Of a stretch of 64,000 bases of DNA, positions 4,006-25,160 are shown piece after piece. Source of the DNA: Opitutales bacterium. GTDB lineage: Bacteria > Verrucomicrobiota > Verrucomicrobiia > Opitutales > Oceanipulchritudinaceae. The stretch lies in the NCBI GenBank assembly GCA_020831525.1, contig JAFIGH010000002.1, forward strand, positions 1 through 64,000, written 5' to 3'. The notes below the pieces were generated by a model. The model saw only the letters and a program-made list of their open reading frames with translations. It was not told where the DNA came from and did not search any database. The first letter of the stretch is position 1. Each line of letters starts with the position of its first letter. The position numbers and the translations under genes were made by a program.

Positions 4006-4020
4006 TGCATAGTCAATGCA
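4006..4020 (+). promoter_or_regulatory. Putative LacI operator, lacI-type gene (autoregulation)
   Basis: TGCAT-AGTCA-ATGCA: a perfect inverted repeat with a 5-bp spacer, 48 bp before the regulator's start codon. The nine other sites in the locus have a 4-bp spacer, so this one is a variant. Suggests autoregulation; the match is seen, the binding is inferred. Confidence 0.6.
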
Positions 4021-4068
4021 TGCAAACGGTATTCAAGAATGACAAACTCCCCATTTTAACGCTCAGCC

Positions 4069-5145
4069 ATGCCACGCGCCAGTCAACACGAAATCGCCCG
4101 TATCCTCAACCTATCGCAACCCACGGTTTCCCGGTCGCTTGCTAATCATCCTGCCATCAACGCGGAGACGAAGGCGCTTGTCTGGGAGACGGCGGTGCGT
4201 CTCGGCTACCAGCAGAAGGTCAACCAACTGCGCAAAACCGGGCGCGGCGCGAAACCCCTCGTTGTGGGTATCGTTATTTCCATTCCGCACGAGCACCAGA
4301 GTAAGTCGGAGACGTTTCAGCTCGTGCTCAAGGGCATCTCCGAGAAGAGCGCCTCGGAAAACCTCTTGCTCGATGTTTTGCACCACGAACCCAAGGATGT
4401 GAAGAGCAAGTCGCTGCTGCGCCGGATCAAGCAAGCGGGCTGGCACGGCTGCATCCTCGTCCACCCGATGTCGCCGGAGGTCGTGCAGACCATTGCCCGC
4501 ACGGTGGCCACGGTGTCGATCATCGAGAACTACAGGAACGGCCACATCGACTGCGTGGATGTCGACCAGTCGGAGGGGATCTGCGGAATGGTCCGGCAGT
4601 TGATTGAAGCGGGGCACAAACGAATCGGATTCTACAGCTGGGTGTATCAGCTGGAGACTCCATGGGTGCAGCACCGTCTCGGCAGTTTCGTCGAAGGACT
4701 CTACCGTTGCGGCCTCGAGTTCAATGCGGGCGATTGCATTAACATCCATCTTTCGGAGACCCTCGAACCGAATGAAGCCGCCGCGCGCGCGGCGGAGCGG
4801 ATACGCAACGGAGTGACCGCCTTTTGCTGCGCCGCAGACCACCAGGCCTACAGCCTCATGACCGACTTGGCAGGGCAGGGCATCCGTGTTCCGAAGGATT
4901 GCTCAGTCACCGGTTTCGACGGGATCGATGTGCCGCAGGACCTTCCCGCGGTGGCGACCGTGCGGGTGCCCTACGACGAACTGGGGCGGTCTTCCGTCAA
5001 CCAGCTGTTGCGCCGCCTCGAACAGCCTACGGCACCCCGGCGCCACCTTCTGGTCGACGGTGAGTTGATCGTCGGCGGGTCGGTTGCGCCTCCGCCGTCC
5101 CCGCGCGCGGCGGCGAAGAAGAAGGCGCGGTCGAGACAAGCTTGA
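4069..5145 (+). CDS. LacI-family transcriptional regulator
   Basis: 358 aa. The N-terminal helix-turn-helix is clear (ASQHEIARILNLSQPTVSRS, residues 4-23, then SLANHPAIN and the hinge helix region). Residues about 63-335 form the periplasmic-binding-protein-like effector domain (begins LVVGIVISIPHEH; CSVTGFDGIDVPQDLPAVAT near residue 290). The C-terminal tail is Lys/Arg/Ala-rich. Such proteins bind palindromic operators and release or change on binding a sugar. It is the first gene of a polysaccharide-use locus, and a repeated palindrome of the sort LacI proteins bind lies upstream of its own gene and of the downstream units, so it is the best candidate for the locus regulator. Confidence 0.92.
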   Translation: MPRASQHEIARILNLSQPTVSRSLANHPAINAETKALVWETAVRLGYQQKVNQLRKTGRGAKPLVVGIVISIPHEHQSKSETFQLVLKGISEKSASENLLLDVLHHEPKDVKSKSLLRRIKQAGWHGCILVHPMSPEVVQTIARTVATVSIIENYRNGHIDCVDVDQSEGICGMVRQLIEAGHKRIGFYSWVYQLETPWVQHRLGSFVEGLYRCGLEFNAGDCINIHLSETLEPNEAAARAAERIRNGVTAFCCAADHQAYSLMTDLAGQGIRVPKDCSVTGFDGIDVPQDLPAVATVRVPYDELGRSSVNQLLRRLEQPTAPRRHLLVDGELIVGGSVAPPPSPRAAAKKKARSRQA

Positions 5146-5177
5146 AGAGCGGCGGGGAAGTGCCAGGCCTCCCCCCA

Positions 5178-5214
5178 ACAAAAAAAGCGCCCGGCAGCAT
5201 GGGCCGCCGGGCGC
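5178..5214 (-). terminator. Rho-independent terminator of the PEP-CTERM gene
   Basis: Perfect 9-bp stem GCGCCCGGC / GCCGGGCGC (5187-5195 and 5206-5214), loop of 10, followed on the minus strand by a run of seven T. Confidence 0.85.
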
Positions 5215-5247: not shown

Positions 5248-5835
5248 TCAGCGCCGGCGACGGCGCAGGAGCACAAGACCGAGACCCACGGCGGCGAAGA
5301 TGAGCGCGTAGGTGCCCGGCTCGGGGATAAGCGTCGGGTTCATGAAGTCGAGGCTGGAGCCCTCCGCGACATTGAAGAGTACGCCGACTTGGTAAATGTT
5401 CGAACCGTCGCCAGTGGGGGTGAACGTGATCGTGTTCAGGCCTTCCGACAGCGGTGCGTTCGGGAATTCATCGAGCCATGCGTAGGTCGACGAAAAACCT
5501 TTCGACCAGATAAGGGCGGTCGGCGCGGCCCCCACGAGGGAGAGATTGTCGATCTCCACCGTGAAGGTGTATTCCATGCCGGGTGTCAGGGTACCGGCGA
5601 ATTCTTGGTAGAAATTCACCTCCGTGTTGGTCGCGGCGTTGACTGTCGCGGCATTTCCGCTGATGGAGACGTATCCGGCGCCGACGGGATCGCCGATTTC
5701 ACCGGGGCCGCCGCCGCCGTCAAAGACGAACCAACTATCAATGCCGGCGGCGAAGTCGGCGTTCATCATCAGATTTCCAAACAGCGACGAGGCCGGGAGC
5801 AGCCCGATCGCGAGGAGTGTGTGTAGTTTTTTCAT
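5248..5835 (-). CDS. PEP-CTERM protein, 195 aa
   Basis: Signal peptide at residues 1-20 (MKKLHTLLAIGLLPASSLFG), a beta-rich middle that looks like a small jelly-roll (MMNADFAAGIDSWFVFDGGG near residue 23), and a textbook PEP-CTERM tail: IPEPGTYALIFAAVGLGLVL followed by LRRRRR. PEP-CTERM tails direct proteins to an exosortase at the outer surface or into extracellular polymer; no exosortase gene is in this window. AAAGGAAT before the ATG is a plausible ribosome site. A terminator follows and a palindromic operator (5915-5928) lies 80 bp upstream, placing it in the LacI-type regulon. The domain may bind carbohydrate, as many jelly-roll PEP-CTERM proteins are suspected to do. Confidence 0.85.
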   Translation of the reverse strand: MKKLHTLLAIGLLPASSLFGNLMMNADFAAGIDSWFVFDGGGGPGEIGDPVGAGYVSISGNAATVNAATNTEVNFYQEFAGTLTPGMEYTFTVEIDNLSLVGAAPTALIWSKGFSSTYAWLDEFPNAPLSEGLNTITFTPTGDGSNIYQVGVLFNVAEGSSLDFMNPTLIPEPGTYALIFAAVGLGLVLLRRRRR

Positions 5836-5914: not shown

Positions 5915-5928
5915 TGCATAATAATGTA
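5915..5928 (-). promoter_or_regulatory. Putative LacI operator, PEP-CTERM gene
   Basis: TGCATAATAATGTA, one base from a perfect TGCAT-N4-ATGCA palindrome; 80 bp upstream of the PEP-CTERM start. Confidence 0.65.
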
Positions 5929-6028: not shown

Positions 6029-8965
6029 TTAGAAGGAGAGCCCGAAATTCATGCGCCAGGACATGCCCGGTGCTCGGATGAGGCCGTATTGCGAGCGGTC
6101 GTTGAAGAGATTATCGACATTGAGCTGTATGTAGGCGTCGTGTTCACGGATGTTCCACGAGTATTTGACCATGGCATTGATGGTGAGGCGTGGATCGGTG
6201 AAGGCCTTGATTGTTTCGCCGGTTTCGTTTTGCTTGCGCTGGCCGGCGGAGGTGAAGGCGGAGGCGTATTCACGCTTGCTCTCCCATGTGCCGCCGAGGC
6301 CGAGTTGCAGACCGTCGAGGAACTCCTCGAAGGTGTAGGAGGCCCATGCGCTGACGACGTGTTTCGGCGTGTCGTCGAGGGCCTCGCCCTTGCCCCAGCC
6401 GATGCCGGACCAGCTTGCGGTGTCGGAGTTGGGCAGACCCGGCGTGTCGCCGCCCGGATAGGCGACCTCTGGGTCGACACCCGCGAGCCCCCAGTTGGAG
6501 TTGGGAAAGTACCAGGATGCCCAGCGGTCCCAGTTGCCCTCTGCATAGTCATAGGTGACAAAGTTGCCCGGATTGACGACTTCGCGCTTCACGTGCGAAT
6601 AGTTCAAAACGATCTGCAGGTTGTCCCGGGGAGAGAGAATCATCTGCACCTCGATGCCCTCCGATTTGTCGGAAATGGCTTGGAAGAAATCACCCTCGGC
6701 CCAGTCCTGCGCGGCGGTGTTGACGACCGGGTCGTCGCGGCCTTCGTAGAGGAAGCCCGGCCACGGGTCGTTGTCGGTGCGTTCTTCGCGCGGAAGGGCG
6801 AATTCGTCCTTGAGGGCGGCGAAGACGGCGTCGAGGTAGGCGGCGCCCTCGGGCGTGGAGGCGTTGATGTAGGTGAACTCGGAGCGCCCGTCTTCGCTCA
6901 TCTGCTCGAAAATCGCGCCGGAGGCCCGTGCCGCGGCCCACTCATCAGCGGCGGCTTCGAGGTAGCGGTTGCCCGCCTGCCGCTCGAGATTCACTTCGTC
7001 GAGGCGGTAAACGATGTCAGCATTGCGGTCGAAGTTGCCTTTGATCGGCGCCGGTGCCCACCAGTAGCTGAAGGGCACACCTTCGCGTTCGATGCGGAAG
7101 GCGCTCACCGTGGCGGAGAGGCGGCTGTCGAAGAAGTCGAACTTCAGGCCGACTTCCCGTGCCTTCGCGACGGAGGATTCAAGGGCTTGGCCAATGCCGT
7201 CGCGCTGGCCGTCAAAATTGGGCTCCACGCCCTCGGACTGAAGGGCGAAGATATTGATGCCCTTGGTGATTTCAAAGCTGGCGCCGAACTGGGTCGTCGT
7301 CTTGCTCACCGTTGTGTCGGGGAAGAACTGGCGGCCCGCGCGCGAGCCGATGAGTTCAAAGAATCCGTCTTTCGAAGAAGTCTCGTCGCGGCGGATACCG
7401 CCGATGAGGAAGAGGCGCTCGTTTATGAAGCGGCCTGAGTAAACGAGGTATAGACCGGTGTTCTCGGTTTTGTCGCCGGACAGTTGGGTCGCCCGGAAAG
7501 GCAGGTTGGGCGAGCCGTCGTACTGCGTGTCGAAGCGGATCGGTTCCGGGTCGGTCGGATTGCGGTAGCGGAAGTTGTCGTTGTCCGGGCTGCCCGCTGT
7601 TCCGAAGCCGACATTGTCGTTTTGTTGCAGCTCATACGAGAACCCGACAAGGAGGTTGTGCTCCGAATTGAGCCAGCGGCTTCCTTCGAAGTAGCGGTCG
7701 CGGAGATTCACTTCCGCGCGGACCTGATCCCACTCCGTGTGTTCTTCGGAGCCCACCCAGTTGTATTGAAGGACGGCGTTGTCCACGTCGACGACAACGT
7801 CGGTGTCCCGCCCGTCGATGATCTGCCGGGCGCGGATGGTGGCGAGGTGCGGCTGCGCGCGCGGCGCGGCGGAGTTGGTCGCGATGCCGCCGAAGACATC
7901 GCGCCAGCGGAAGCGCCGGTCGGAATGGTTGTAACCGACCATGAGGTTGATTTTTTCGCCGATGCCCTGCTGCCAGTCGAGGTTGAAGTTCCACGCGTCG
8001 GTGATGAGGAAGGTGTCCGGACCGGACCAACGGAAGGTGCGCGGGTTCTTCCCCTCGAATTCAAGCATCCCGAAAGTCTCCAGCCGGTCGGCTTGGAAAA
8101 TGGGAATACCCGTGATCGTGGGTGAGCGCACGCTGAGGAATCCGATGCCGTTGTCGTGCGCCTTTCCTGCTTCGAAATCGAGCGTGATCTTCGTCCGCCG
8201 GAACGGTGACCACTCCAGGACGGGAGAGATGAACCAGCGGTCGTGCGTGTTGAAATCGGTGAAGTGTTCGCGGTCTTCGTAGGCCGCCGTGAGGCGGTAG
8301 CCGAGATTGCCCGGGAGCGGACCCGTGACATCCAGCGTAGCCCGCCGCCATTCGTCCGATCCGTAGCCGAGCGTGATGTGCTGCTCGCTGTGGGGCAGCG
8401 GTGCCTTCGGGAGATAATTGACGACGCCGCCGAAATTACCCACCCCGTAAAGCAGGGCACTCGGGCCGCGCACGACTTCCACACGCTCAATGTTGATGGT
8501 GTCGGTGGCGTGCTGGCGGCGGAATCCCTTACGAAGTGTGTTGTTGGTGACGAATCCGCGGATCTTGAAAGAGGAATCCGTCTTGTTGGCCGTGCTGCCT
8601 TCGGGGTTGTTCACATTGCCGAAGCCGCCTGTGCCGCCCCCGCTGAAGGCGTCGTTCTGCGACTGCAGGACGATCCCCGCGCTGTAGCGCAGGCTTTCGC
8701 GCAGGTCCGAGGAACCGGTGTCGCGGATAAATTCGGAGGTCAGCACCTCGATTGTCAGCGGCATGTCCTGGATGAGCACGCTCAGGCGCGATCCGGTGAC
8801 GGCGTTGGCCGCGTAGTAGCCGCGGTCGCCGTCGGTCACGACTTCAAAGGGCGAAAGCTCGTAGACGGCGTCATCATCCTGGGCCGTGAGCGGTGCCGCA
8901 AAAGCGGTCAGGAGTCCGAGAAAACACGCGGCGGCCGCGCGGCGGGGTAGAGTCAAGGATTTCAT
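6029..8965 (-). CDS. TonB-dependent outer-membrane receptor
   Basis: 978 aa, typical of the family. Signal peptide to about residue 28; then YELSPFEVVTDGDRGYYAAN, the TonB-box-like segment common in Opitutae receptors. The plug domain spans roughly residues 55-200 (VVRGPSALLYGVGNFGGVVN is the classic plug motif near residue 170). The rest is a beta-barrel ending in aromatic residues (MSWRMNFGLSF). Such receptors import oligosaccharides, siderophores or cobalamin across the outer membrane using TonB energy. No SusD partner is present, as usual outside Bacteroidota. An operator-like palindrome about 90 bp upstream puts it under the same control as the glucanases, so a beta-glucan oligosaccharide is the likely substrate (inference). 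No Shine-Dalgarno sequence is evident before the ATG. Confidence 0.93.
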   Translation of the reverse strand: MKSLTLPRRAAAACFLGLLTAFAAPLTAQDDDAVYELSPFEVVTDGDRGYYAANAVTGSRLSVLIQDMPLTIEVLTSEFIRDTGSSDLRESLRYSAGIVLQSQNDAFSGGGTGGFGNVNNPEGSTANKTDSSFKIRGFVTNNTLRKGFRRQHATDTINIERVEVVRGPSALLYGVGNFGGVVNYLPKAPLPHSEQHITLGYGSDEWRRATLDVTGPLPGNLGYRLTAAYEDREHFTDFNTHDRWFISPVLEWSPFRRTKITLDFEAGKAHDNGIGFLSVRSPTITGIPIFQADRLETFGMLEFEGKNPRTFRWSGPDTFLITDAWNFNLDWQQGIGEKINLMVGYNHSDRRFRWRDVFGGIATNSAAPRAQPHLATIRARQIIDGRDTDVVVDVDNAVLQYNWVGSEEHTEWDQVRAEVNLRDRYFEGSRWLNSEHNLLVGFSYELQQNDNVGFGTAGSPDNDNFRYRNPTDPEPIRFDTQYDGSPNLPFRATQLSGDKTENTGLYLVYSGRFINERLFLIGGIRRDETSSKDGFFELIGSRAGRQFFPDTTVSKTTTQFGASFEITKGINIFALQSEGVEPNFDGQRDGIGQALESSVAKAREVGLKFDFFDSRLSATVSAFRIEREGVPFSYWWAPAPIKGNFDRNADIVYRLDEVNLERQAGNRYLEAAADEWAAARASGAIFEQMSEDGRSEFTYINASTPEGAAYLDAVFAALKDEFALPREERTDNDPWPGFLYEGRDDPVVNTAAQDWAEGDFFQAISDKSEGIEVQMILSPRDNLQIVLNYSHVKREVVNPGNFVTYDYAEGNWDRWASWYFPNSNWGLAGVDPEVAYPGGDTPGLPNSDTASWSGIGWGKGEALDDTPKHVVSAWASYTFEEFLDGLQLGLGGTWESKREYASAFTSAGQRKQNETGETIKAFTDPRLTINAMVKYSWNIREHDAYIQLNVDNLFNDRSQYGLIRAPGMSWRMNFGLSF

Positions 8966-9055: not shown

Positions 9056-9069
9056 TGCATAAATCTGCA
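9056..9069 (-). promoter_or_regulatory. Putative LacI operator, TonB receptor gene
   Basis: TGCATAAATCTGCA: 12 of 14 match to TGCATAATTATGCA. On the minus strand it lies about 8 bp upstream of TTGACC (9042-9047), a possible -35 element, in front of the receptor gene. Confidence 0.6.
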
Positions 9070-9146: not shown

Positions 9147-9989
9147 TTACCGCATGAGAAAAGCCCACGCGCCGGAGAATTCCTCCCCCGGATCGGGCAT
9201 GTAGACCCAGCGGGCGAGGTCGAAGACATATACCCAAGGGGCGTGGGCGACGTGCAGAACGCCGAGAAAGTCTCCCGTGTCGACATTGCCGTTGGCGTCG
9301 ACGAGCATGCCCGCGTAGAACACGTCCGGCTCACCATTGGCTTCACCTTCGATAAACGCCTCGATGTTACGGAAGGTAATCGTCCCGGAGTCCATGTCGC
9401 TGCCGTCGAACTCCGTCGTGATTTCGAAGCCGACCTGCAGGACCTGGAAGCTGTCGTCGACCGAGAGATCGGGGAAGGTGACGCTCAGCTCAAAGGGTTC
9501 GTTGACCGGACCGATGTTGTGGAACTGCGTGTGGTCGGGCTTGGTTTGGAACTCCCAGCCAAGCTCGTTGAAGCCGAGCATCTTGACGAAGGCGCGCACG
9601 ATCATGTTGGACGTGTCGGCACCCGTCCGCGTGGCGCTGGCTTCGCCGCGGAAGACGATGACGTCGCCCGCCTCGAAAAGTTCGTTCGCCGTGGGGCTTC
9701 CCACCGGACCGGCACCGAACTCCTGGAAGAGAAACGACTCGATCTTGTCGCTCGTTTCATCGTCCCATGACATGAAGGTGACGGCATCGCCGTCGATGGA
9801 GACCCGGTCGGGCACATCGAGGGTGGCAAAACCGACCCATTCGGTGACGGGCTGGAACTGGTTGGCCCCGGCGATCCAGTCTCCGTCTACGGAAAAGTCG
9901 TTCGGGTCGACAAGGAGCGGGGTGTTGGCTTGCGCAAAGGCGGCGCAGAGGACACCTGCGAGGGTAAGCATGTGGATTCGTTTTTTCAT
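9147..9989 (-). CDS. Secreted protein with W/Y-rich C-terminal module, 280 aa
   Basis: Signal peptide (MKKRIHMLTLAGVLCAAFAQA). Residues about 25-215 are beta-rich and resemble a jelly-roll carbohydrate-binding domain, but no family is certain. The last 50 residues form a Trp/Tyr-rich module, VDTGDFLGVLHV then PWVYVFDLARWVYMPDPGEE, closely matching the tail of the GH16 enzyme encoded just upstream (DTGDWLGLLFV, PWVYSPSLGWLYLPESGEE). The gene begins 33 bp after that GH16 gene on the same strand and is followed by a terminator, so the two form an operon. A role in glucan binding at the surface is inferred from context. Confidence 0.8.
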   Translation of the reverse strand: MKKRIHMLTLAGVLCAAFAQANTPLLVDPNDFSVDGDWIAGANQFQPVTEWVGFATLDVPDRVSIDGDAVTFMSWDDETSDKIESFLFQEFGAGPVGSPTANELFEAGDVIVFRGEASATRTGADTSNMIVRAFVKMLGFNELGWEFQTKPDHTQFHNIGPVNEPFELSVTFPDLSVDDSFQVLQVGFEITTEFDGSDMDSGTITFRNIEAFIEGEANGEPDVFYAGMLVDANGNVDTGDFLGVLHVAHAPWVYVFDLARWVYMPDPGEEFSGAWAFLMR

Positions 9990-10022: not shown

Positions 10023-11180
10023 TCATTCATTGGCGGCGTGCCGGGGAGCCCATAGCCAGTCGCCGACGGATTCTTCACCGCTCTCCGGCAGGTAGAGCCA
10101 TCCGAGGGAGGGCGAGTAGACCCACGGGTCTTCCTCGACAAAGAGGAGGCCGAGCCAGTCGCCCGTGTCGGCATAACCAGAGGGGCCGAGGGGCCAACCG
10201 CGCCACTCCGCAGCCGCTTCGGCCGGTGCGTAGACGCGAATGTATTCCACCTCCATGCGCTGCGGCCACTCGCCGTCGTGGTCGATGCCCGAAAGACCGT
10301 AGGGCGAGACGCCCGGGTATAAGTCGGTATTGAAATGTCCTCCCCAGGTGCCGCCCACGGCGATGTTGAGGAGCAGGTGAAACGGTTGGTCAAAGGGCCA
10401 GATTTCGAAAACCTCTTCCGGCGGCGGCGGATTGCGTGAGGGAATGAGAGACTCCTTTGTCACGGAAAAGTAGACCTCTCCGTCGACATCCATTTCGATG
10501 CCTTCTTCGGTCCACACCATCGTATATGTGTGGAACTCGTCGCTGGCGGAGGTCAGAAGCGTGCTCCCGCCGGTCGGGGCGGCAGTGGTGGGCATGCCGT
10601 TGCGCAGCTTCGTGTGCAGCGTGCCGTGAATGTTTTCGGGGATGCCCCCGTAAACCTCGTGGAAGACGGGATCGGTCTCGTAGCCGACATGTTCCATAAT
10701 GTCGATCTCGCCGTTGTCCGGCCAGAAGGCCCCCGGAAAGACGGCGTTTTCCGATAGCATCCAGATCGCCGGCCACGTGCCCGTCGTGTTCGGAATGCGC
10801 GCCCGCACCTCGAAGCGACCGTATTGCCACGCATGCAATCCGCGCGTGACAAGCCGGGCCGAGGTATAAATTGGCGAGCGGGAACTATCGGTGTCCTGCT
10901 GGACTTCAATGATGAGGCGGCCGTCCTCCACCCGCACATTCTCCGGGTCGCTTGTGTAGGTCTGCACTTCGTTATTGCCCCAGCCCCCCGCGCCAAGGTC
11001 GTAGGTCCAGTTCTCCGGATTCGGTGCTCCGTCCACGTCAAATTCGTCCGACCACACCAATTCCCAGCCTGCGGGGACGGAAGCTGCCGCAGCATGCGCC
11101 GCGGCGGCGCTCAGGATCACGACGGAAACGGAAAGGAGTGACGCGAGGTTTCGGGTAGAGTCATGGGGTATCCAAGACAT
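10023..11180 (-). CDS. GH16 beta-glucanase (laminarinase type) with W/Y-rich tail
   Basis: About 385 aa from the ATG at 11180. An alternative ATG at 11189 falls inside the operator. Signal peptide ends near AAAHAAAAS. The catalytic domain starts with WELVWSDEFDVDG; the GH16 active site is NGEIDIMEHVG (nucleophile and acid/base Glu flank Asp), preceded by GTWPAIWMLSE. This is the laminarinase subgroup pattern of beta-1,3(4)-glucanases, which cleave glucan internally. After the lectin-like fold (ends MEVEYIRVYAP) comes a 50-residue W/Y-rich module shared with the next gene. The putative -10 region and operator (11185-11198) sit directly against the start codon, so the mRNA may have almost no leader. 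Confidence 0.9.
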   Translation of the reverse strand: MSWIPHDSTRNLASLLSVSVVILSAAAAHAAAASVPAGWELVWSDEFDVDGAPNPENWTYDLGAGGWGNNEVQTYTSDPENVRVEDGRLIIEVQQDTDSSRSPIYTSARLVTRGLHAWQYGRFEVRARIPNTTGTWPAIWMLSENAVFPGAFWPDNGEIDIMEHVGYETDPVFHEVYGGIPENIHGTLHTKLRNGMPTTAAPTGGSTLLTSASDEFHTYTMVWTEEGIEMDVDGEVYFSVTKESLIPSRNPPPPEEVFEIWPFDQPFHLLLNIAVGGTWGGHFNTDLYPGVSPYGLSGIDHDGEWPQRMEVEYIRVYAPAEAAAEWRGWPLGPSGYADTGDWLGLLFVEEDPWVYSPSLGWLYLPESGEESVGDWLWAPRHAANE

Positions 11181-11184
11181 AGGC

Positions 11185-11198
11185 TGCATAATTATGTA
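11185..11198 (-). promoter_or_regulatory. Putative LacI operator, GH16 operon
   Basis: TGCATAATTATGTA, one mismatch from a perfect palindrome. On the minus strand TTGACC (about 11206-11211) lies upstream with AT-rich DNA between, so the site would cover the -10 region, a repressor-like position. Confidence 0.7.
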
Positions 11199-15534: not shown

Positions 15535-15873
15535 TCAGGAGCGCTTCGCGCGGCGGCGCGCGAGAACGAATCCGAGCGCGGGCAGGCCGATCAACGCAGC
15601 GTAGACCGAGCGCTCGGGGATGGTTGTGACTTGCATTGTCGATAGCAATGGCACCGCCGGCGTCATCCACGGCACCGCCTGCGATTTCGAACTGAAGAAA
15701 CATTGCGTCGGCATTCGGCGGAACGCTGATTGTATTGACGGGATCGGGATCGTTTAAGTCTCCGAACTGCAACCCGTTGAAGCTGTCGACGGAAATGTCG
15801 CCTTGGGTTGCGCCGAAATGGAAAGGGCGCAGGCCGTAGTCCCGAGAGTGAAGATGGATAGGAATTCCATCAT
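15535..15873 (-). pseudogene. Decayed duplicate of the 210-aa PEP-CTERM gene
   Basis: Three pieces align to the intact neighbour but in different frames. The start (15873) gives MMEFLSIFTLGTTACALSIS, matching MMKLLSIITTGTLSCALSLS. A middle piece reads VPPNADAMFLQFEIAGGAV and DDAGGAIAIDN, matching VPANADTLFLEFNLVTGAF and DGSGGGVTIDN. The end reads VTTIPERSVYAALIGLPALG then FVLARRRAKRS and stops at 15535-15537. So most of the jelly-roll is deleted and at least two frameshifts separate the parts; the PEP motif itself has become PER. The terminator and operator were duplicated with it. Confidence 0.85.
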
Positions 15874-15943
15874 AGTATTTTTTGGTTATGCATTGATTTC
15901 GGATGCGCGTCAGGATACCGATTTGCATCCATGATGCCTTTCA

Positions 15944-15957
15944 TGCAAAATTATGCA
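15944..15957 (-). promoter_or_regulatory. Putative LacI operator in front of the PEP-CTERM pseudogene
   Basis: TGCAAAATTATGCA, one base from the perfect palindrome TGCATAATTATGCA. Retained although the gene behind it is broken. Confidence 0.65.
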
Positions 15958-16135: not shown

Positions 16136-16149
16136 TACGTAAGTATGCA
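16136..16149 (+). promoter_or_regulatory. Putative LacI operator, second GH16 operon
   Basis: TACGTAAGTATGCA, 11 of 14 to the consensus and overlapping a perfect CATAC-GTAA-GTATG palindrome (16134-16147). It lies between TTGACG (16122-16127, possible -35) and the gene, a repressor-like position. Confidence 0.6.
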
Positions 16150-16208: not shown

Positions 16209-17120
16209 ATGATTACGATTCCTGTGAACAAACGCTTCACCGCCGCCCGCCGCAGGGCGGTGGCCGTCCTTTTCCCCGCGGTTCTCGCCGCGTCCGTAGC
16301 GGCGGGCACCGATTGGCGCCTCGTCTGGTCCGATGAGTTCGAGACGGACGGTTTGCCCGACCCCGCGAAGTGGGGCTATGACCTCGGCACCGGCGCCTCC
16401 GTCGGCCTCGTTGGGTGGGGAAACAATGAAGCCCAGTACTACACCGACCGCACCGAGAACGCGCGGGTCGAGAACGGCATCCTCATCATCGAGGCGAGGC
16501 GCGAGCAAATGCAGAACTCGCAGTACACCTCCGCGCGTATGGTCACGCGCAACCGCGGCGATTGGCTCTACGGGCGAATCGAGGTGCGGGCGAAAATGCC
16601 CTATGGGCGGGGCACATGGCCGGCGATCTGGATGCTGCCGACGGACTGGGAGTACGGCGGATGGCCGCACAGCGGTGAAATCGACATCATGGAGCACGTG
16701 GGCTTTGACCACGGGCGTGTCCACGGCACGGTCCATACCGATGCATTCAATCACATGCAAGGCACGGAGCGCGGCGGGTCCACCATGGTCCCGGACCTGC
16801 ATGAGGCGTTTTACACCTACGCCATTGAGTGGGACGAGGACCGCATCCGGTGGTTCGTCGATGATGTGGAGTATTTCGAATTTGAGCGCCAGGACGGGTG
16901 GGGCAGTTCGGAGTGGCCCTTTGACCGGCGGTTCCACCTTATTCTCAATATCGCCATCGGCGGGAACTGGGGTGGTCAGCAGGGGATCGACAACGACATT
17001 TTTCCGCAGCGCATGGAAGTTGAGTATGTGCGCGTTTTTGAGGCCGCCGACGCGGCTGAACCGGAACCCGTGCGCGGTGCGTGGATCCATTTCTTCAATC
17101 CCGGCTACGAGGGAAACTGA
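16209..17120 (+). CDS. GH16 beta-glucanase (laminarinase type)
   Basis: About 303 aa from the ATG at 16209 (an upstream ATG at 16182 is possible). Signal peptide through VLAASVAAG. Catalytic domain from WRLVWSDEFETDGLPD to MEVEYVRVFEAA, with GTWPAIWMLP and the active site SGEIDIMEHVGF (two Glu around Asp). The enzyme should hydrolyse beta-1,3 or mixed-linkage glucan internally. Unlike its paralogue at 10-11 kb, it stops soon after the catalytic domain (RGAWIHFFNPGYEGN) and has lost, or never had, the W/Y-rich tail. It leads an operon with the lipoprotein glycosidase (9 bp gap) and probably the phosphorylase. Confidence 0.92.
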   Translation: MITIPVNKRFTAARRRAVAVLFPAVLAASVAAGTDWRLVWSDEFETDGLPDPAKWGYDLGTGASVGLVGWGNNEAQYYTDRTENARVENGILIIEARREQMQNSQYTSARMVTRNRGDWLYGRIEVRAKMPYGRGTWPAIWMLPTDWEYGGWPHSGEIDIMEHVGFDHGRVHGTVHTDAFNHMQGTERGGSTMVPDLHEAFYTYAIEWDEDRIRWFVDDVEYFEFERQDGWGSSEWPFDRRFHLILNIAIGGNWGGQQGIDNDIFPQRMEVEYVRVFEAADAAEPEPVRGAWIHFFNPGYEGN

Positions 17121-17129: not shown

Positions 17130-18494
17130 ATGAACGGTCTGCTTTGTGATCTGTGGGTTCGGTCCGGTAGGGAGTGTTTTCCTGCCGTCCTGGTGGCGTT
17201 TTATGCCGCCGCGCTCGCTCCGCTTCTTCTTTTGGCGGCGTGCGCCCCGGCGAGGGAGAGCGAACCGTTCTCTGTCCATGTTGAGCGCGCCCCGGGCGGT
17301 CAGTTCACTCTTTTGCGCAACGGCGAGCCCTTCATTATGAAGGGGGCGGGCGGCCGCAGCCGGATCGAGGAACTGGTGGCGGCAGGGGGAAACACCGTTC
17401 GCACGTGGGGAGTTGACGATCTCGAGCGGGAGATCGCGGGAATGCCCTTTCTTGATTACATGCACGCTCAAGGGCTTGCCGTGCTTGCGGGAATCTGGGT
17501 GCAGCACGAGCGTCACGGATTCGACTACAGCGACCCCGATGACCTCGAGCGGCAGCGGCGGACGGTGCGCGAAGCTGTGGAAACCTACCGCGACCATCCT
17601 GCCATAGTCGTTTGGGGACTCGGCAACGAGATGGAAGCTTTTCGCGGCGATGCCGACGACACGCCCGTCTGGCAGGAGGTGAACATCCTCGCGCGCATCG
17701 TGAAGGAAGTGGATCCAAGCCGACCCGTCATGACCACGGTCGCAGGGGTGACGCCGGAGAAGGTCGCCAGTGTGCTCCGTCATGCGCCGGAGGTCGATAT
17801 TCTCGGAGTGAACGCCTACGCGGCGGCCATCCGGACGGGCGAAATTCTTAACGAAGCGGGATGGGACCGACCCTTTGTTCTTGCCGAATTCGGTCCGCGG
17901 GGGCACTGGGAGGTGCCGCTCACGCCGTGGGGCTCGCCCGTCGAGCCGACCTCAGAGGAAAAGGCTCGGTATTACCTGAACACCTACGAGACAGTCATGG
18001 AAGACGCGGGCGACCGTTGTCTCGGTACTTTTGCTTTCCTCTGGGGCCACAAGCAGGAGGTGACACACACATGGTATGGTATGTTTCTTTCCGGCGGCGA
18101 GAAGCTGCCCGCGGTCGATGTCATGACGTATGCATGGAGCGGGCGCTACCCGGAAGTTCGCTGCCCCGTGCTTCGCACTGTTGACTTCGACGGAAACGGC
18201 CGCGTTGTCCCTCCCGGCACGCGTTGGGACGTATCGGCGGAAGCTGTCGACCCCCAGGGGCTTCCTCTCGAGTTTGCATGGGAGGTGGTCTCCGAGCAGT
18301 CGGATCCCGCCGTGGGCGGCGACCGCGAGGAACCACCCCCGCGCCACCCCGACGCCATCCTCGCCGCCGACGAAAATTCCGCCGCCGTGCGTGCTCCGGA
18401 TACTCCCGGCGCATACCGGCTTTTCATTACCGTGAGAAACACCGAAAACTCCGCCACGGTGGCGAATTTTCCCTTCAAGGTTGAAGCACCTTGA
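17130..18494 (+). CDS. Lipoprotein glycoside hydrolase, clan GH-A TIM barrel
   Basis: 454 aa. A GGAG sequence precedes the ATG. Lipoprotein signal with lipobox LAAC (Cys near residue 38). The barrel starts GQFTLLRNGEPFIMKGAGGR; acid/base Glu in VVWGLGNEME (about residue 168) and nucleophile Glu in PFVLAEFGPRG (about residue 253) are the Asn-Glu and Glu pair of GH-A enzymes (GH2, GH5 and GH158 are alike at this level; the exact family cannot be told by eye). Residues about 345-454 form a PKD/Ig-like domain. Membrane-anchored and co-transcribed with GH16, it probably trims glucan oligosaccharides in the periplasm or at the surface. Confidence 0.8.
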   Translation: MNGLLCDLWVRSGRECFPAVLVAFYAAALAPLLLLAACAPARESEPFSVHVERAPGGQFTLLRNGEPFIMKGAGGRSRIEELVAAGGNTVRTWGVDDLEREIAGMPFLDYMHAQGLAVLAGIWVQHERHGFDYSDPDDLERQRRTVREAVETYRDHPAIVVWGLGNEMEAFRGDADDTPVWQEVNILARIVKEVDPSRPVMTTVAGVTPEKVASVLRHAPEVDILGVNAYAAAIRTGEILNEAGWDRPFVLAEFGPRGHWEVPLTPWGSPVEPTSEEKARYYLNTYETVMEDAGDRCLGTFAFLWGHKQEVTHTWYGMFLSGGEKLPAVDVMTYAWSGRYPEVRCPVLRTVDFDGNGRVVPPGTRWDVSAEAVDPQGLPLEFAWEVVSEQSDPAVGGDREEPPPRHPDAILAADENSAAVRAPDTPGAYRLFITVRNTENSATVANFPFKVEAP

Positions 18495-18533: not shown

Positions 18534-21500
18534 ATGAAACATTCGGTATTGGATTCGCCCGCTGTGGCGGCGAATGGAATCGACGCCTCCGCGGCTGTTC
18601 CGGCAAACATGATTCTCGATCTTGAAGACGACAGCTATGTTGTCATCGAAGCATACGACCGCATCCCGCCGTTCTTTTGCTCACTCACGAGTGACGCCGA
18701 CATTTGGGTATTCATTTCCTCGACCGGTTCGCTCACGGCCGGGCGCAAGGATCCCGACAGTTCGATTCTGCCTTACGAGACGGTCGACCGGATCCACGAC
18801 AGCGGTGCGCACACCGGCCCCGTGGCGATTTTGCGCTGGCGCGAGAATGGCGGGTGGCGTGTCTGGGAACCGTTTTGCGGCGAGGGAAAGGCCGACGGAA
18901 ACGTAAGGCGCCGCCTCATGAAGAATGTTGCGGGTACGCGAATGGTATTCGAGGAGACTCTGGTTGATGAAGGGTTGTCGTTTTCCTCAACGCTCATGAT
19001 CAGCGGACGTTTCGGGCTCGTGCGTGAATGCCGGGTGCGCAACTCCGGGGATAAGGGGCGGTGCCTTGAAGTCCTGCACGGGATGCGCAATCTCGTGGCC
19101 AGCGGGATCACGCGGCAGTTGCAGAACGAAATGAGCTGCCTCACTGATGCCTACAAGCAGAATGAAATCCTCGAGCCTGAGGGGCTCGGTGTTTTCAGCA
19201 TGGCGTCAGGAGTTACGGACCACCCCGTGCCCTACGAAGTCCTGCGCGCCACTGTGGCGTGGTCGTGCGGACTGCCTGGGGGCAGCCGGAGCGTCGATCC
19301 CTCCGCTCCGGACCAGTTCCGCGCCGGAAAGAGTCCGGCGGTGTCGGCGGCATCCCGCGGCGTGCGTGCCCACTGGTTCGAGTGGGCGGAGATCAGCGTG
19401 CCCGCCGCCGAGGACGTTCGCTGGAAACAGATTGCCGATACCGGGCTCAGTCAGGGTGCGGTGGCGCGAATCCAGCGCCTCATGAAAACGGGTCTGCCCG
19501 TGCGGGATGTCGAAGAGGATGTTCTCCAGGGCGAGGATTCGCTGCGCCGTCGGCTCGCGGCGGCGGACGGGTACCAGGAAACGGCGGACAATCTGGCTAC
19601 GGCGCACCACCTCGCCAATGTTCTTTTCAATGTCATGCGCGGCGGAACTTTTCCCGGCGGCTACGAGATGGCGCGCGACGACTTCCGCGCCTTTCTCGTC
19701 TCGTCCAACCGGGCGCTCGCCGCCAAGCACGAAGACTGGCTGAAGGGCCTCCCGGAGCGCGTCCACCGCGACACGCTTCTGCAGGGCGTGAAGGAACAGG
19801 GCTGCGTGCAGTTGGAGCGTGTGTTTTTTGAATACCTGCCGCTCTCCTTCAGCCGCCGCCACGGTGACCCCAGCCGCCCGTGGAACCGCTTCCGCATCGA
19901 AACCCGCGATGAAGAGGGGAGGGACATTCTCACGTTCCAAGGCAACTGGCGCGACATCTTTCAGAATTGGGAGGCCCTCGCGCTCAGCTTTCCGGCTTAC
20001 CTTGAGAGCATGATTTCCAAGTTTGTGAACGCATCATCGGTGGACGGATACAACCCGTACCGGATCATGCGTGACGGCATCGACTGGGAAGAACCCGAAC
20101 CGGAAAATCCATGGGCGGCCTTTGGCTACTGGGGCGATCACCAGATTATCTATTTGCTCAAGTTGCTCGAAGCGTATTCCGCACACAACGACGGAGCGCT
20201 TCCGGGTCTATTGAATACAAGACGCTTTACCTACGCGAACGTTCCCTACCGCATCAAACCCTTCGAGGAGATTCTACAGGATTCCCGCAACACGCTCGAA
20301 TGCGATACGGAGCTAGCCGCGCGCTTGCGCAAGGACGCGGCGACGCGCGGATCGGACGAGAAGCTCGTTACCGGCGTGGACGGTATGCCCGCCCTCGTTA
20401 GCTTCATGGAGAAACTCCTCGTTCCGCTCCTCGCAAAGTGGAGCAATTTCCTGCCCGGCGGCGGCATCTGGATGAACACGCAGCGGCCCGAGTGGAACGA
20501 TGGAAACAACGCTCTGGTCGGCAACGGACTCTCCATGGTCACACTGTGCTACCTGCGACGGCACCACTCTTTCCTGCTTGGCCTTCTGGAGCAGTTGCCG
20601 GAGGCGGCATTTGCGGTCTCCGCGCCGGTCGCGGAGTGGATGCGTGCCGTCCATTGCGCACTCGCCGACGGAAACCCTGCGGCAGACTGCGGCGATGCCG
20701 TGCGCCGGTTTGCCATTCTCCGTGCTCTCGGGACTGCCGCCTCCGCGCACCGGGAAGCCGTCTACGGGCGCGATTTCACGGAGGATGCGGCGGAGATCTC
20801 CGCAGGCGAACTGACCGGACTTCTGCAGACCTTTCAAGCGTGGACGGATGAGACGATCCGCCGCAACAAACGCGCCGACGGACTCTACCACGCCTACAAT
20901 CTGATGTTGATCACGGATGAGGGGGCGGATATCGGTAACCTCGACCCGATGCTCGAAGGCCAGGTAGCCGCCCTAAGCGCCGGGCTGCTCAGCGCCGGAG
21001 AGGCCATCGAGCTTCTCGACAGTCTCCGCGTTAGCCCGCTCTATTGCCCGCGCCGACGGAGCTATATTCTGTATCCGGACCGTGCCATTATCCCGTTCCT
21101 CCGGAAGAACCGTCTTGATGCGCAGGCGCTTCGTGCCAGCCCTTTGCTGGCCGCGATGATGAAACGCGGGGACCACCGAATCGTGTACCCGGAGAGCGAT
21201 ACGGTGTGGCGCTTTCATCCCGACTTCACCAACGAAGGCGACTTACGTGCGCGGCTCGACGTGGTCGAGCGCGAGGGTGCCTACGGAAAGGTCGGGCCGG
21301 AAGACCGCCGGTGTATCCACGATCTCTACGAAGGTGTTTTCAACCACCACTCATTTACGGGAAGGAGCGGTTCGATGTTCGCCTACGAAGGCCTCGGAAG
21401 TATCTACTGGCACATGGTATCAAAGCTCCTTCTCGCGACCCAGGAGGTTCTTGTTGACGCTTGTAAGCAAGGGGCGCCGATCTCCGTTTACGAAGGCCTC

Positions 21501-22019
21501 GACAGGCACTACGAAGCCATCCGTGATGGTCTCGGCTTCCGCAAGTCTGCCGAGGATTACGGTGCCTTTCCGACCGATCCATATTCACACACGCCTGCCC
21601 ACGCGGGTGCGCAGCAGCCGGGAATGACCGGACAAGTAAAGGAAGAGATCCTCACCCGGCGCGGCGAACTGGGTGTGCGCGTCGAACGGGGCTCTATCCA
21701 TTTCGCGCCGGTCCACCGTCTTCTCGGCGAGGAGTTTCTTCCGGGAGACGGAGGGGTGTTTAGATTCATTGATGCCACGGGCCTTCGCGCAAGCCTACCC
21801 CTGCGGGCCGACAGCCTTGCCTTTACCCTGTGCCAGACGCCGGTTGTCTATCGCCGCACCGATGCCGCGACCGGTCCTTCCATCCGCGTCCACTCCGCCG
21901 ACGGACGGGAGGAGCGGATCGAGGGCGATAAACTCGGAACGTCGTGGAGCCAGTCGGTCTTCCGGCGCGACGGGAGCGTCCGCTTAATCGAAGTCGAACT
22001 CCCCGCAGGGCATTTATGA
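18534..22019 (+). CDS. Probable beta-1,3-oligoglucan phosphorylase (GH149/GH161-like)
   Basis: 1161 aa, no signal peptide, so cytoplasmic. The N-terminal region (from MILDLEDDSYVVIEAYDRIP) is a beta-sandwich as in GH94-related phosphorylases; the C-terminal half carries the (alpha/alpha)6-barrel with WAAFGYWGDHQIIYLLKLLE (the Asp is a good catalytic acid candidate, near residue 536) and WMNTQRPEWNDGNNALVGNG (near 650). The length and these motifs fit the GH149/GH161 enzymes that release glucose-1-phosphate from beta-1,3-glucan oligomers; this is from memory of the families, not an alignment. Following GH16 and a glycosidase and preceding a sugar symporter, it fits the last step of laminarin use. 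Confidence 0.7.
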   Translation: MKHSVLDSPAVAANGIDASAAVPANMILDLEDDSYVVIEAYDRIPPFFCSLTSDADIWVFISSTGSLTAGRKDPDSSILPYETVDRIHDSGAHTGPVAILRWRENGGWRVWEPFCGEGKADGNVRRRLMKNVAGTRMVFEETLVDEGLSFSSTLMISGRFGLVRECRVRNSGDKGRCLEVLHGMRNLVASGITRQLQNEMSCLTDAYKQNEILEPEGLGVFSMASGVTDHPVPYEVLRATVAWSCGLPGGSRSVDPSAPDQFRAGKSPAVSAASRGVRAHWFEWAEISVPAAEDVRWKQIADTGLSQGAVARIQRLMKTGLPVRDVEEDVLQGEDSLRRRLAAADGYQETADNLATAHHLANVLFNVMRGGTFPGGYEMARDDFRAFLVSSNRALAAKHEDWLKGLPERVHRDTLLQGVKEQGCVQLERVFFEYLPLSFSRRHGDPSRPWNRFRIETRDEEGRDILTFQGNWRDIFQNWEALALSFPAYLESMISKFVNASSVDGYNPYRIMRDGIDWEEPEPENPWAAFGYWGDHQIIYLLKLLEAYSAHNDGALPGLLNTRRFTYANVPYRIKPFEEILQDSRNTLECDTELAARLRKDAATRGSDEKLVTGVDGMPALVSFMEKLLVPLLAKWSNFLPGGGIWMNTQRPEWNDGNNALVGNGLSMVTLCYLRRHHSFLLGLLEQLPEAAFAVSAPVAEWMRAVHCALADGNPAADCGDAVRRFAILRALGTAASAHREAVYGRDFTEDAAEISAGELTGLLQTFQAWTDETIRRNKRADGLYHAYNLMLITDEGADIGNLDPMLEGQVAALSAGLLSAGEAIELLDSLRVSPLYCPRRRSYILYPDRAIIPFLRKNRLDAQALRASPLLAAMMKRGDHRIVYPESDTVWRFHPDFTNEGDLRARLDVVEREGAYGKVGPEDRRCIHDLYEGVFNHHSFTGRSGSMFAYEGLGSIYWHMVSKLLLATQEVLVDACKQGAPISVYEGLDRHYEAIRDGLGFRKSAEDYGAFPTDPYSHTPAHAGAQQPGMTGQVKEEILTRRGELGVRVERGSIHFAPVHRLLGEEFLPGDGGVFRFIDATGLRASLPLRADSLAFTLCQTPVVYRRTDAATGPSIRVHSADGREERIEGDKLGTSWSQSVFRRDGSVRLIEVELPAGHL

Positions 22020-22293: not shown

Positions 22294-22307
22294 CGCATAA
22301 AAACGCA
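22294..22307 (+). promoter_or_regulatory. Weak operator-like site before the symporter gene
   Basis: CGCATAAAAACGCA, 10 of 14 to the locus consensus and not a true inverted repeat; it lies 8 bp before the ATG. Confidence 0.35.
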
Positions 22308-22314
22308 TTGAACG

Positions 22315-23763
22315 ATGAGTCTGCCCCGACACTGCGCCACCGCCGCCGCCGACCGGATACCAAATCTCCAGAAAATCGCCTACGGGCTTGGAGCCTTGGT
22401 GAACAATCTGTTAGGGGCGGCCATCGGCGTTATGGCCATCGTGCTCAACCTCGGCCTCGGCATGAATCCGGCGGTCGTCGGTCTGCTCATGGCCTTGCCC
22501 CGTCTCACCGACGCGCTGACCGACCCGGTGATGGGATATATCTCGGACCAAACCCGCACGCGCTGGGGACGCCGCCGACCGTTTATTTTCTTCGGTGCCA
22601 TCGCTGCCGGGATCATCTTCGCCCTGCTTTGGCAACTGCCGCCGGGGCATAGCGAGACCTTCTATTTCTGGTTCTTCCTTATCGGTTCCTTGTTCTTTTA
22701 CCTCGCTTACACGGTCTTCGCGACGCCGTGGGTAGCGCTCGGTTATGAGATGACACCCGATTACAACGAGCGCACGCGCCTCATGGGTGTGGCCAACTGG
22801 ATGGGGCAGATCGCATGGGTAGCCGCGCCGTGGTTCTACTGGATCATGGAGAATAAAAATTTCTTCGATGATTCCGTCTCAGGAGCACGGGGCCTGGCCA
22901 TCATGATCGGGGTCTTCGCCGTGGCGGTCGGCATCATCCCCGCTGTTTTCTGCCGCGAGCGCATGGGCAAGGCGGAAATGGCGGAAAAAACGGAATTGAT
23001 CGAGAGCGGCCTACAAGCCATCTGGCGCAATGTGGTTTCGTTTTTCAAGGGCTTTCTCATCACGATCAAATTTACGCCCTTTCTTAAACTGTGCGGCGCC
23101 ACGTTTCTCGTTTTCAACGGCTTCATGCTCGTTTCGGCGTTCTCTTCGTACGTGATTATTTACTACGTCCACGGAGGCGACAAAGGCGCCGGGTCACAGC
23201 TGATCGGCTGGAACGGAACGGCCTCCGCCATCGCCACCTTCTGCGTCATTCCCCTTGTCACATGGATCTCGACGCGCCTCGGCAAGCGGCGCGCCTTTTT
23301 CATCGCCATCGGCATTTCCATTTTCGGCTACGGGCTGAAGTTCTTCTGCTACAGCCAGACCACGCCGCTCCTCCTCCTCGCCGCCACGCCCTTCATTGCT
23401 TTTGGTCTCGGCGGGCTCTTTACGCTCATGGGGTCGATGATCGCGGATGTCTGCGACTTTGACGAACTCGAAACCGGACGCCGCCGCGAGGGCATGTTCG
23501 GCTCCATCTTCTGGTGGGTCGTCAAACTTGGCATGGCCCTCGCTCTTGGATTTTCGGGCTTTCTTCTCAACGCCACGGGTTTCGACGTCGAAATGGGAGG
23601 CGACCAGCCGGAGCGCACGCTCCTGCTCATGCGCATCTTCGACTGCATCATACCGATGGTCGCCTCCGGTATCGCCATCTGGCTCGTCGCCTCCTACCGC
23701 ATCACCGAGGACAAGGCGCGCGAGATCCGCACAAAACTCGAAGCCCGCCGCGGCAAGGTGTGA
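22315..23763 (+). CDS. GPH-family sugar:cation symporter (MFS)
   Basis: 482 aa with about twelve hydrophobic segments. The MelB/GPH signature DALTDPVMGYISDQTRTRWG then RRRPFIFFGA lies at residues about 63-92 after the second helix; WVALGYEMTPDYNERTRL (about 139) is the second conserved loop. GPH carriers import glycosides, pentosides or hexuronides with H+ or Na+. Located directly behind the phosphorylase, it would bring glucan di- or oligosaccharides across the inner membrane (inference). Confidence 0.9.
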   Translation: MSLPRHCATAAADRIPNLQKIAYGLGALVNNLLGAAIGVMAIVLNLGLGMNPAVVGLLMALPRLTDALTDPVMGYISDQTRTRWGRRRPFIFFGAIAAGIIFALLWQLPPGHSETFYFWFFLIGSLFFYLAYTVFATPWVALGYEMTPDYNERTRLMGVANWMGQIAWVAAPWFYWIMENKNFFDDSVSGARGLAIMIGVFAVAVGIIPAVFCRERMGKAEMAEKTELIESGLQAIWRNVVSFFKGFLITIKFTPFLKLCGATFLVFNGFMLVSAFSSYVIIYYVHGGDKGAGSQLIGWNGTASAIATFCVIPLVTWISTRLGKRRAFFIAIGISIFGYGLKFFCYSQTTPLLLLAATPFIAFGLGGLFTLMGSMIADVCDFDELETGRRREGMFGSIFWWVVKLGMALALGFSGFLLNATGFDVEMGGDQPERTLLLMRIFDCIIPMVASGIAIWLVASYRITEDKAREIRTKLEARRGKV

Positions 23764-23863
23764 GATAATTTCCGCGCGAAGCGGTCCGAAATCGAGATCT
23801 TACGGTTAGGGCTATTCCGGATACGGGTCCGTCCGTTGTCTTATTTGAATGGTCGTGCCGGGA

Positions 23864-25072
23864 TTACTCTCCGTTGCCGATACCTTGCAGTGCGGCATCC
23901 TCGGTAACCTCCGGACCGCGGTAGTAGAACGCGTCATCCGCGCTGTAGCCTTTGCCGGAGAGAACGTATTTGGGCTCGCGATCGACGTCCCAGAGGCCCC
24001 AGTTGTCGTCGCGTTCCTTCCACGGTTCGTCGAAGGCGGCGAAATAGAACACGGCGGCGGGGCGGCTGAAGCCGTCGCCGGGATTTTCGCCGTTCACGCC
24101 GTAGGCCCATGCCGTCATATCATTGAAATACCAGGCTTGGTTTACCGGATGGGCCTGATGACGGGCGAAATCCTTTACAAACGCCTCATCAAGGTAGGCC
24201 GAGGGCACGCTTTGCCAGCCGGTTTCACCGATCACGATTGGAATGGCGTGACCCGCCGCATTGAGCGCGCTGCGCACGGCATGAAAGTTTTCGCGGGCGT
24301 AGGTATAGGCGGCGTCCATCATGGCCCGTGCGCGGCGGGGTTCGGGTACGGACAGCTGGCGGAAATCCCAAAGCTCGAATCCGGAATCCCAGTAGGCGTA
24401 GGTGTGGACAGCAGCGAAGTCGATGTGCCGCCAGACTTCGGCAATGTCGCTGCCGGGTTCAGCCGCGTAGGGCTCCCAGTTGTCGTTTACGGTGAGGGGT
24501 TGCCGCACCCGCTCCCGGACGTACTGGATGTAAGCCACCATATCTTCCGGCGGAACGGCGACGAAGGACCAGCTCACAAGCACCTCGTTACCTACGCTGA
24601 CGGCCGCGATGATGTCGGGATGGGCGTTGGCCAGTTCGATGGCCGCGGCCAGCTCGCGCATGTTCCCGGTATGGTTCTCCGCGTCGGCGCCTTCCACATA
24701 TGCGCCCAGCTGCACTTTGATCTTGAGATTGTGTTCATGGATCAGCTCCACCACGGCACGTCCGTGTTCCCCTGAGCTGAAGACGCGGATCAACCCGAAC
24801 CCCGCCTCTTCCAGTAGACGCAGGTCTTCGAGAATCTCCTCCCGGTCGGGATGGACTCCGGTCTCCGGGCTCTGCCCCCGGCGGAAGCCCGAGTAGGAGA
24901 GGGCGGGGCGTTCCCAGATCTCCGGATCGAGCGGGCGGAGGGCTGTGGCCGCCATCGCCTCGCCGACTCGGGGAGAGGGCGGCGCGGCGTCCGGCGCCGG
25001 ACCGCGGCAACCGGCGGACAAGAGGACGAGAAGGGAAGCGAGGGCGGCGGTCCGGAGGGTGGCAGTTTTCAT
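23864..25072 (-). CDS. GH17-like beta-1,3-glucanase or glucanosyltransferase
   Basis: 402 aa. N-terminal signal with a Cys (LLVLLSAGCRG), a probable lipoprotein though the lipobox is imperfect. The barrel starts ALSYSGFRRGQSPETG; GH17 hallmarks are SVGNEVLVSW (acid/base Glu, about residue 190) and IVIGETGWQS (nucleophile Glu, about residue 282). GH17 enzymes cut or transglycosylate beta-1,3-glucan. The last about 50 residues (AAFDEPWKERDDNWGLWDVD) are typical of bacterial members. It faces the symporter gene convergently and has a perfect operator-like palindrome upstream. Confidence 0.88.
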   Translation of the reverse strand: MKTATLRTAALASLLVLLSAGCRGPAPDAAPPSPRVGEAMAATALRPLDPEIWERPALSYSGFRRGQSPETGVHPDREEILEDLRLLEEAGFGLIRVFSSGEHGRAVVELIHEHNLKIKVQLGAYVEGADAENHTGNMRELAAAIELANAHPDIIAAVSVGNEVLVSWSFVAVPPEDMVAYIQYVRERVRQPLTVNDNWEPYAAEPGSDIAEVWRHIDFAAVHTYAYWDSGFELWDFRQLSVPEPRRARAMMDAAYTYARENFHAVRSALNAAGHAIPIVIGETGWQSVPSAYLDEAFVKDFARHQAHPVNQAWYFNDMTAWAYGVNGENPGDGFSRPAAVFYFAAFDEPWKERDDNWGLWDVDREPKYVLSGKGYSADDAFYYRGPEVTEDAALQGIGNGE

Positions 25073-25146
25073 TGGGATGGATTTTGATAGGGTGTAAGAA
25101 TGAGCAGGCGTAGACTTTCCCGTCCGGACCCCGTTGTCAATGGGAA

Positions 25147-25160
25147 TGCATTAAAATGCA
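25147..25160 (-). promoter_or_regulatory. Putative LacI operator, GH17 gene
   Basis: TGCAT-TAAA-ATGCA: perfect half-sites with a 4-bp spacer. On the minus strand it is followed after about 6 bp by TTGACA (25134-25139 region), a good -35 element for the GH17 gene. Confidence 0.72.

Follow-up and report, generated by a model that had tools for sequence, protein, structure and literature searches.

Regulators of the LacI/GalR family commonly direct local sugar regulons in which the regulator gene adjoins its targets, the effector domain is of the sugar-binding type, and palindromic sites lie upstream of the target genes and of the regulator gene itself (Ravcheev et al. 2014, PMC4052901). At the centre of a typical site is a CG, to which a hinge helix carrying conserved Ala and Leu residues binds (PMC2978694, PMC4052901). 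In the PMC4052901 set, 1173 of 1303 have a CG operator centre, and the regulators with even palindromes include 49 with another central pair and 29 with a degenerate pair. A text search of the same paper found no mention of Verrucomicrobiota, and literature searches turned up no reconstruction of a Verrucomicrobiota regulon for the use of beta-1,3-glucan. A further relevant system is CytR of gammaproteobacteria, which works with CRP, controls nucleoside genes and has a TGCA-type half-site, variable half-site spacing and a linker described as flexible and unstructured (PMC3454398).

The DNA analysed here, referred to as the window, is a stretch of 64 kb that carries a beta-glucan locus of approximately 21 kb, corresponding to 0.4% of the 5.3-Mb genome. 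The locus begins with the gene for a LacI-type regulator of 358 aa (4069–5145, + strand; Pfam Peripla_BP_3, E 1e-23) with the recognition helix SQPTVSRSLANHP. It is followed on the minus strand by genes for a PEP-CTERM secreted protein (5248–5835; Pfam PEP-CTERM), a TonB-dependent receptor of 978 aa (6029–8965; Pfam Plug, E 2e-13), a secreted protein of 280 aa with no Pfam match (9147–9989), the GH16 endo-beta-glucanase upstream of it, here designated GH16a (10023–11180; Pfam Glyco_hydro_16, E 4e-18), a di-haem oxidoreductase (DHOR) with an N-terminal CBM4_9-like domain (11418–14393; Pfam DHOR, E 2e-66, and CBM_4_9, E 2e-5) and another PEP-CTERM secreted protein (14542–15174; Pfam PEP-CTERM, E 1e-3, with the NCBIfam PEP-CTERM subfamilies under their cut-off). 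A shortened PEP-CTERM-like gene remnant was recognised next by reading the sequence (15523–15874, minus strand, ends approximate). Three genes in one direction on the plus strand then encode GH16b, a GH16 endo-beta-glucanase that is the first product of the operon (16209–17120; Pfam Glyco_hydro_16, E 4e-26), a GH158-type beta-glucanase (17130–18494; PDB 9oro, a GH158 structure, E 1e-91) and a GH149 1,3-beta-glucan phosphorylase (18534–22019; PDB 6hq6, E 1e-260). The locus is completed by an MFS_2-type sugar symporter (22315–23763, + strand; Pfam MFS_2, E 2e-62) and a GH17-like glucanase (23864–25072, minus strand; Pfam Glyco_hydro_17, E 1e-5, slightly under its cut-off), beyond which lie YbaB and RecR.

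The phosphorylase scored 1347 bits with the NCBIfam equivalog GH149_beta_1_3, exceeding the cut-off of 1150, and is an enzyme specific for 1,3-beta-glucan. Because this phosphorylase and a GH158 enzyme are encoded together, beta-1,3-glucan is the likely substrate of the locus. The laminarin PULs of Bacteroidota share with it a TonB receptor and GH16, GH17, GH158 and GH149 enzymes for beta-1,3-glucan. Unlike them, the locus has a LacI-type regulator that is soluble, and it includes PEP-CTERM proteins as well as a di-haem oxidoreductase; in the genes scanned with Pfam no SusD-type partner was detected. The 280-aa protein (9147–9989), GH16a (10023–11180) and further secreted proteins at L061:1050–3020 and 12811–13581 have in common a segment of some 55 residues at the C-terminus. 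Its pattern, similar to DTGDWLG...PWVY...GWLYLP....W, differs from PEP-CTERM and has no Pfam match, and the segment is possibly a tag for surface sorting or anchoring.

In the original prediction, ten copies of a paired TGCAT/ATGCA site between 4.0 and 25.2 kb had been assigned to the LacI-type protein, and all ten were found where it had placed them. On the basis of the sequence comparisons described below, the sites are very probably operators of the protein encoded at 4069–5145, which would be a sugar-sensing regulator of beta-1,3-glucan use. Most of them are located about 50–110 bp 5' of the start codon, within the published range of LacI-family sites (PMC4052901).

The predicted operators fall into two classes according to their position in the promoter. 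At the GH16a, DHOR, PEP-CTERM, GH16b and lacI promoters the site follows a TTG(A/C)C-like element by 5, 8, 11 or 21 bp and covers or touches the -10/start region, with the distance characteristic of each gene kept among the closest species. The lacI site (4006–4020, + strand, ATG 48 bp on) had been described as longer-spaced; it is indeed 15 bp long, TGCAT-AGTCA-ATGCA, with N7 between the TGCA half-sites. The putative operator of the first PEP-CTERM gene, TACATTATTATGCA in gene orientation (5915–5928, minus strand), is 79 bp 5' of the ATG, ranks third in the window by a matrix from other species (the ranks given below are by this matrix) and has the counterpart TACACGTTTATGCA at the same place in the related genome G001. 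That of GH16a, TACATAATTATGCA (11185–11198, minus strand), covers the predicted -10, ranks first and recurs as identical or near-identical copies in G002, G001 and G006. It stops 4 bp 5' of the likely ATG of GH16a, a start codon kept in four species. In the DHOR promoter, TACACACTTATGCA (14389–14402, minus strand; rank 7) overlaps the first possible start codon (ATG) of the gene and is kept in G002, G006 and G008. The second PEP-CTERM gene is preceded at 68 bp from its ATG by TGCATATATTTGCA (15243–15256, minus strand; rank 5), to which TGCAAAACTATGCA (plus-strand reading) corresponds at the same place in G002, and the candidate operator TGCATAATTTTGCA (15944–15957, minus strand; rank 2) has the G002 counterpart TGCATATTCTTGCA. 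The GH16b site, TACGTAAGTATGCA (16136–16149, + strand; rank 8), lies 8 bp after TTGACG and 59 bp 5' of the ATG; its G002 counterpart is TACGGAAGTATGCA, at an unchanged distance from TTGACG.

A different, conserved arrangement was found at the TonB and GH17 promoters, where the site lies 6–8 bp before TTGAC. The TonB site TGCAGATTTATGCA (9056–9069, minus strand) is 8 bp upstream of the -35 element TTGACC and 90 bp 5' of the ATG, and its spacing to TTGAC (7–8 bp) is kept in G002, G001, G006 and G008. The GH17 site TGCATTTTAATGCA (25147–25160, minus strand; rank 6) is 6 bp upstream of TTGACA and 74 bp 5' of the ATG, an arrangement repeated in G001 (TGCATATTTATGCA) and G006 (TGCATAAAAATGCA). The remaining site, CGCATAAAAACGCA (22294–22307, + strand), 7 bp 5' of the symporter ATG, had been called weak, and it scored only 10.8 bits (rank 11). 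No equivalent was found in the relatives, in two of which the symporter gene starts 36–41 bp after GH149, a gap that leaves no room for a promoter, and its role as an operator is doubtful.

Several features of these promoters are recorded separately. In the region 14389–14420 the first ATG of DHOR lies inside the operator, 7 bp after a -10-like ATTATA, and at 11178–11198 there is, in four species, no room for a ribosome-binding site between the operator and the likely ATG of GH16a; the transcripts of GH16a and of the di-haem gene may be leaderless. A third, weaker TGCA-like half-site occurs 10 bp further on at 5925, 9046, 14399 and 25157, and some of these operators may hold overlapping tandem sites. 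Where the gene remnant lies, G002 has a fragment with 65% identity to the beginning of the adjacent PEP-CTERM protein, and the remnant at 15523–15874, with a strong operator of its own, is apparently a decaying duplicate.

The sites are AT-rich and overlap predicted -10 regions, so the pattern might reflect promoters or base composition in the AT-rich gaps of a GC-rich genome, with no dedicated regulator. The bare TGCAT-N4-ATGCA pattern with up to 2 mismatches is indeed unspecific by itself, with many chance matches (34 in the 64-kb window versus 15.6 expected). The stricter pattern TRCATAATTATGYA, again with up to 2 mismatches, has 6 matches in the window versus 0.10 expected, every one in the locus. 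A weight matrix built from the nine 14-bp sites gave leave-one-out scores of 12.8–23.6 bits, and its matches were not equally frequent elsewhere: at a threshold of at least 14 bits there were 9 in the locus, none in the other 42.8 kb of the window and 1 in 275.8 kb of contigs taken without selection from the same genome. To avoid circularity, a second matrix was trained on the sites of other species alone. It placed eight of the nine 14-bp sites at ranks 1–8 of the whole window, and no position in the remaining 42.8 kb reached 10 bits. Moreover, the N6 spacing between half-sites stands out and the neighbouring spacings do not. By these controls in the window and the genome the compositional explanation is strongly disfavoured, and we regard it as very improbable.

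Genome-wide, TRCATWWWWATGYA with up to 1 mismatch occurs at 11 places in 5.3 Mb, 6 of which are in the 21-kb locus (binomial P 1.9e-12). The evidence lies in this clustering and not in the count, which is no proof by itself since it does not rise above that of a reversed-pattern control in the same genome (11 versus 13). The extra matches C127:1817 (which falls within a gene), C165:14251 and C68:18091 appear to be due to chance and were rejected as regulon sites. On contig C1 further strong sites precede genes for a PEP-CTERM protein and a GH16; others precede a GH16/GH17 cluster, and a PEP-CTERM-like gene on contig C64. The regulon therefore exceeds the locus. The grouping of the locus under one regulator had extended to most of its units, and it is supported as a prediction, with the 22294 site doubtful; its scope is wider, taking in GH158 and GH149, which had not been named, and genes on other contigs.

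The orthologues of the regulator that were found share 94, 84, 76, 73 and 54% identity with it. With the genome of the window counted, five species have a site before the TonB orthologue and four each before those of GH16a, DHOR and GH17, the genomes that retain them before the TonB, GH16, di-haem and GH17 genes being those with regulator orthologues of 73–94% identity; in G008 no site of at least 13 bits was found directly before GH16a. In G006 the 76% orthologue is in the middle of a 53-kb contig from which all target genes are absent. These lie on contigs 79, 73 and 101 and have the near-perfect sites TGCATAATTATGCA, TGCATAATCATGCA and TGCATAAAAATGCA, respectively. This separates the link between regulator and sites from plain neighbourhood. 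The prediction that the regulator binds its own gene gains from the conservation of the 15-bp lacI promoter site, which has the same form in G002, G001 and L139; the G006 lacI promoter has an imperfect site, TGCATTGATTATGCG, and a perfect N7 site is absent from some closely related lacI promoters (L138, L140 and L142). The target sites of G002 and G001 stay at 14 bp although the lacI promoter site has 15. The L139 contig (PXDX01000092.1), with a 73% identical regulator and the 15-bp site at its own promoter, is filed under candidate division WWE3 and is probably mis-binned Opitutales.

The protein encoded at 4069–5145 has the features of the LacI/GalR family, namely the effector domain, a TVSR-type helix-turn-helix and palindromic sites at sugar genes and at its own gene. 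The periplasmic-binding-protein-like effector domain is above the cut-off (Peripla_BP_3, E 1e-23), and the N-terminal helix-turn-helix is under it (Pfam LacI, 20.4 bits, cut-off 27). The SQPTVSR recognition helix is conserved among the close orthologues, and its residues are nearly invariant wherever the site is invariant. A structure model, used for the fold and the linker and containing neither DNA nor a dimer, matched over the full length PurR-DNA complexes (E 6e-19) as well as LacI DNA complexes. The canonical LacI hinge pattern, checked on the linkers of E. coli LacI and PurR, was matched by none of 78 homologues; another LacI-type protein of the same genome has the usual QPNAMARGL linker. 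The model places a short helix at residues 51–56 within a block of mean pLDDT 66, and the linker may thus have some hinge-like structure. The centre of the 14-bp operators is A/T. The protein and its sites differ from the LacI/GalR reference set in this centre, in the missing canonical hinge and in the unequal length of the sites, 15 bp at the gene of the regulator and 14 bp at the targets. The A/T centre and missing hinge are nonetheless compatible with membership of the family, given the 49 and 29 regulators published without a CG centre (PMC4052901).

Relatives of the regulator (35–94% identity) were collected in 79 loci, nearly all from Verrucomicrobiota genomes, in which TonB (53), MFS (45), GH16 (34), GH149 (32) and GH158 (21) genes occur. 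A blind search covering every 4-base inverted repeat at spacings 0 to 16 returned TGCA-N6-TGCA as the top repeat in the own locus, in the close-orthologue loci (16 versus 0.5) and also in the 71 loci where the regulator is more distantly related (59 versus 3.4, P 6e-51). Upstream of lacI itself the repeat was counted 9 times in 19 loci of one clade and 13 times in 13 loci of another. In the noncoding DNA of two CFTNHP clades N6 was counted 31 and 20 times, with other spacings at 0–3; in an Opitutaceae-dominated clade N8 leads with 18 and N6 has 8. Instead of being a regulon motif, these N8 sites may all descend from a single site within a conserved divergent promoter. On the tree of regulators the spacing label clusters by clade (21 changes versus 39 in shuffles). 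The half-sites are constant and the spacing varies, with N6, N7 at the lacI promoter and N8 in Opitutaceae. No obvious relation was seen between the length of the linker and the spacing of the operator. By analogy, CytR appears as the nearest precedent for this behaviour of half-site, spacing and linker, the TGCA-type half-site and its variable spacing being common to both (PMC3454398). Unlike those of CytR, the targets here are beta-glucan genes, and the NCBIfam CytR model gave 83 bits against a cut-off of 436, which does not support orthology. Distant operator copies in several genomes, at L100:4715, L111:1858, L115:9464 and L061:13650, precede genes for PEP-CTERM or PEP-CTERM-like secreted proteins, which ties the PEP-CTERM sorting system to the beta-glucan regulon.

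The operators could also be real and read by a different protein, a LacI-type paralogue or a global regulator, the nearby lacI being a passenger or one of several readers. The genome encodes further LacI-type proteins, some targets are distant from lacI, and CytR too uses a TGCA half-site (PMC3454398). Such a reader is nevertheless improbable, as the 79 loci link the motif to this subfamily of regulators, own promoter included, its spacing differs by clade of this very regulator, the recognition helix hardly varies where the site does not, and no TGCA-N6-TGCA was present in 55 kb of short loci around 15 distant LacI-type proteins. Assignment of the locus to the LacI-type protein, as originally predicted, is backed by the sites conserved in relatives, by the scattered targets of G006, by the conserved site at the regulator's promoter and by the blind search; at the level of sequence, the comparison shows which genes bear the site, its conservation, its tie to the regulator subfamily and the conserved longer form at the regulator's gene.

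For the mechanism, we propose that a dimer of the regulator recognises a pair of TGCA half-sites, in most cases separated by 6 bp. In the absence of substrate it would block the GH16, di-haem, PEP-CTERM and lacI promoters by occupying their -10/start regions. The signal for release is likely a beta-1,3-gluco-oligosaccharide, or its product, that would arrive via the TonB receptor and the symporter. The 15-bp site at the lacI promoter would fit a weaker self-control. Most units are likely repressed by binding over the -10 region, and the indifference of the sites to helical phase (5, 8, 11 and 21 bp) is more in keeping with a block than with activation. Where the site lies directly upstream of the -35, as it does for TonB and GH17, it could either block or help the polymerase; repression is favoured there with less confidence, and activation is possible. 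A variant of the main reading, whose probability overlaps with it, has the regulator repress the units with a covered -10 and activate TonB and GH17, where the site is 6–8 bp upstream of the -35. The existence of two promoter classes and the 7–8 bp between the TonB site and TTGAC in five species speak for it, and members of the LacI family, Cra among them, are known to activate depending on where they bind. Repression can, however, also be exerted from a site immediately 5' of the -35, and the GH17 gene of G008 has no TTGAC, so that this dual mode is put forward tentatively.

The regulon adds a new example to a known principle, and the behaviour of hinge and spacing makes the subfamily a variant. 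More speculatively, and with low confidence, the regulator might be viewed as one of a LacI subfamily extending across Verrucomicrobiota that has lost the canonical hinge and the rule of a CG centre, keeps TGCA fixed with a spacing that shifts by clade and promoter, acts as repressor or activator according to position and governs a dispersed beta-1,3-glucan regulon. Verrucomicrobiota are known for polysaccharide breakdown, and a motif that can be searched for in any of their genomes would read out the genes used for laminarin-type glucans, including those of PEP-CTERM proteins and the di-haem enzyme. The subfamily would also provide a natural test of how LacI-type proteins bind without the canonical hinge and the central CG.
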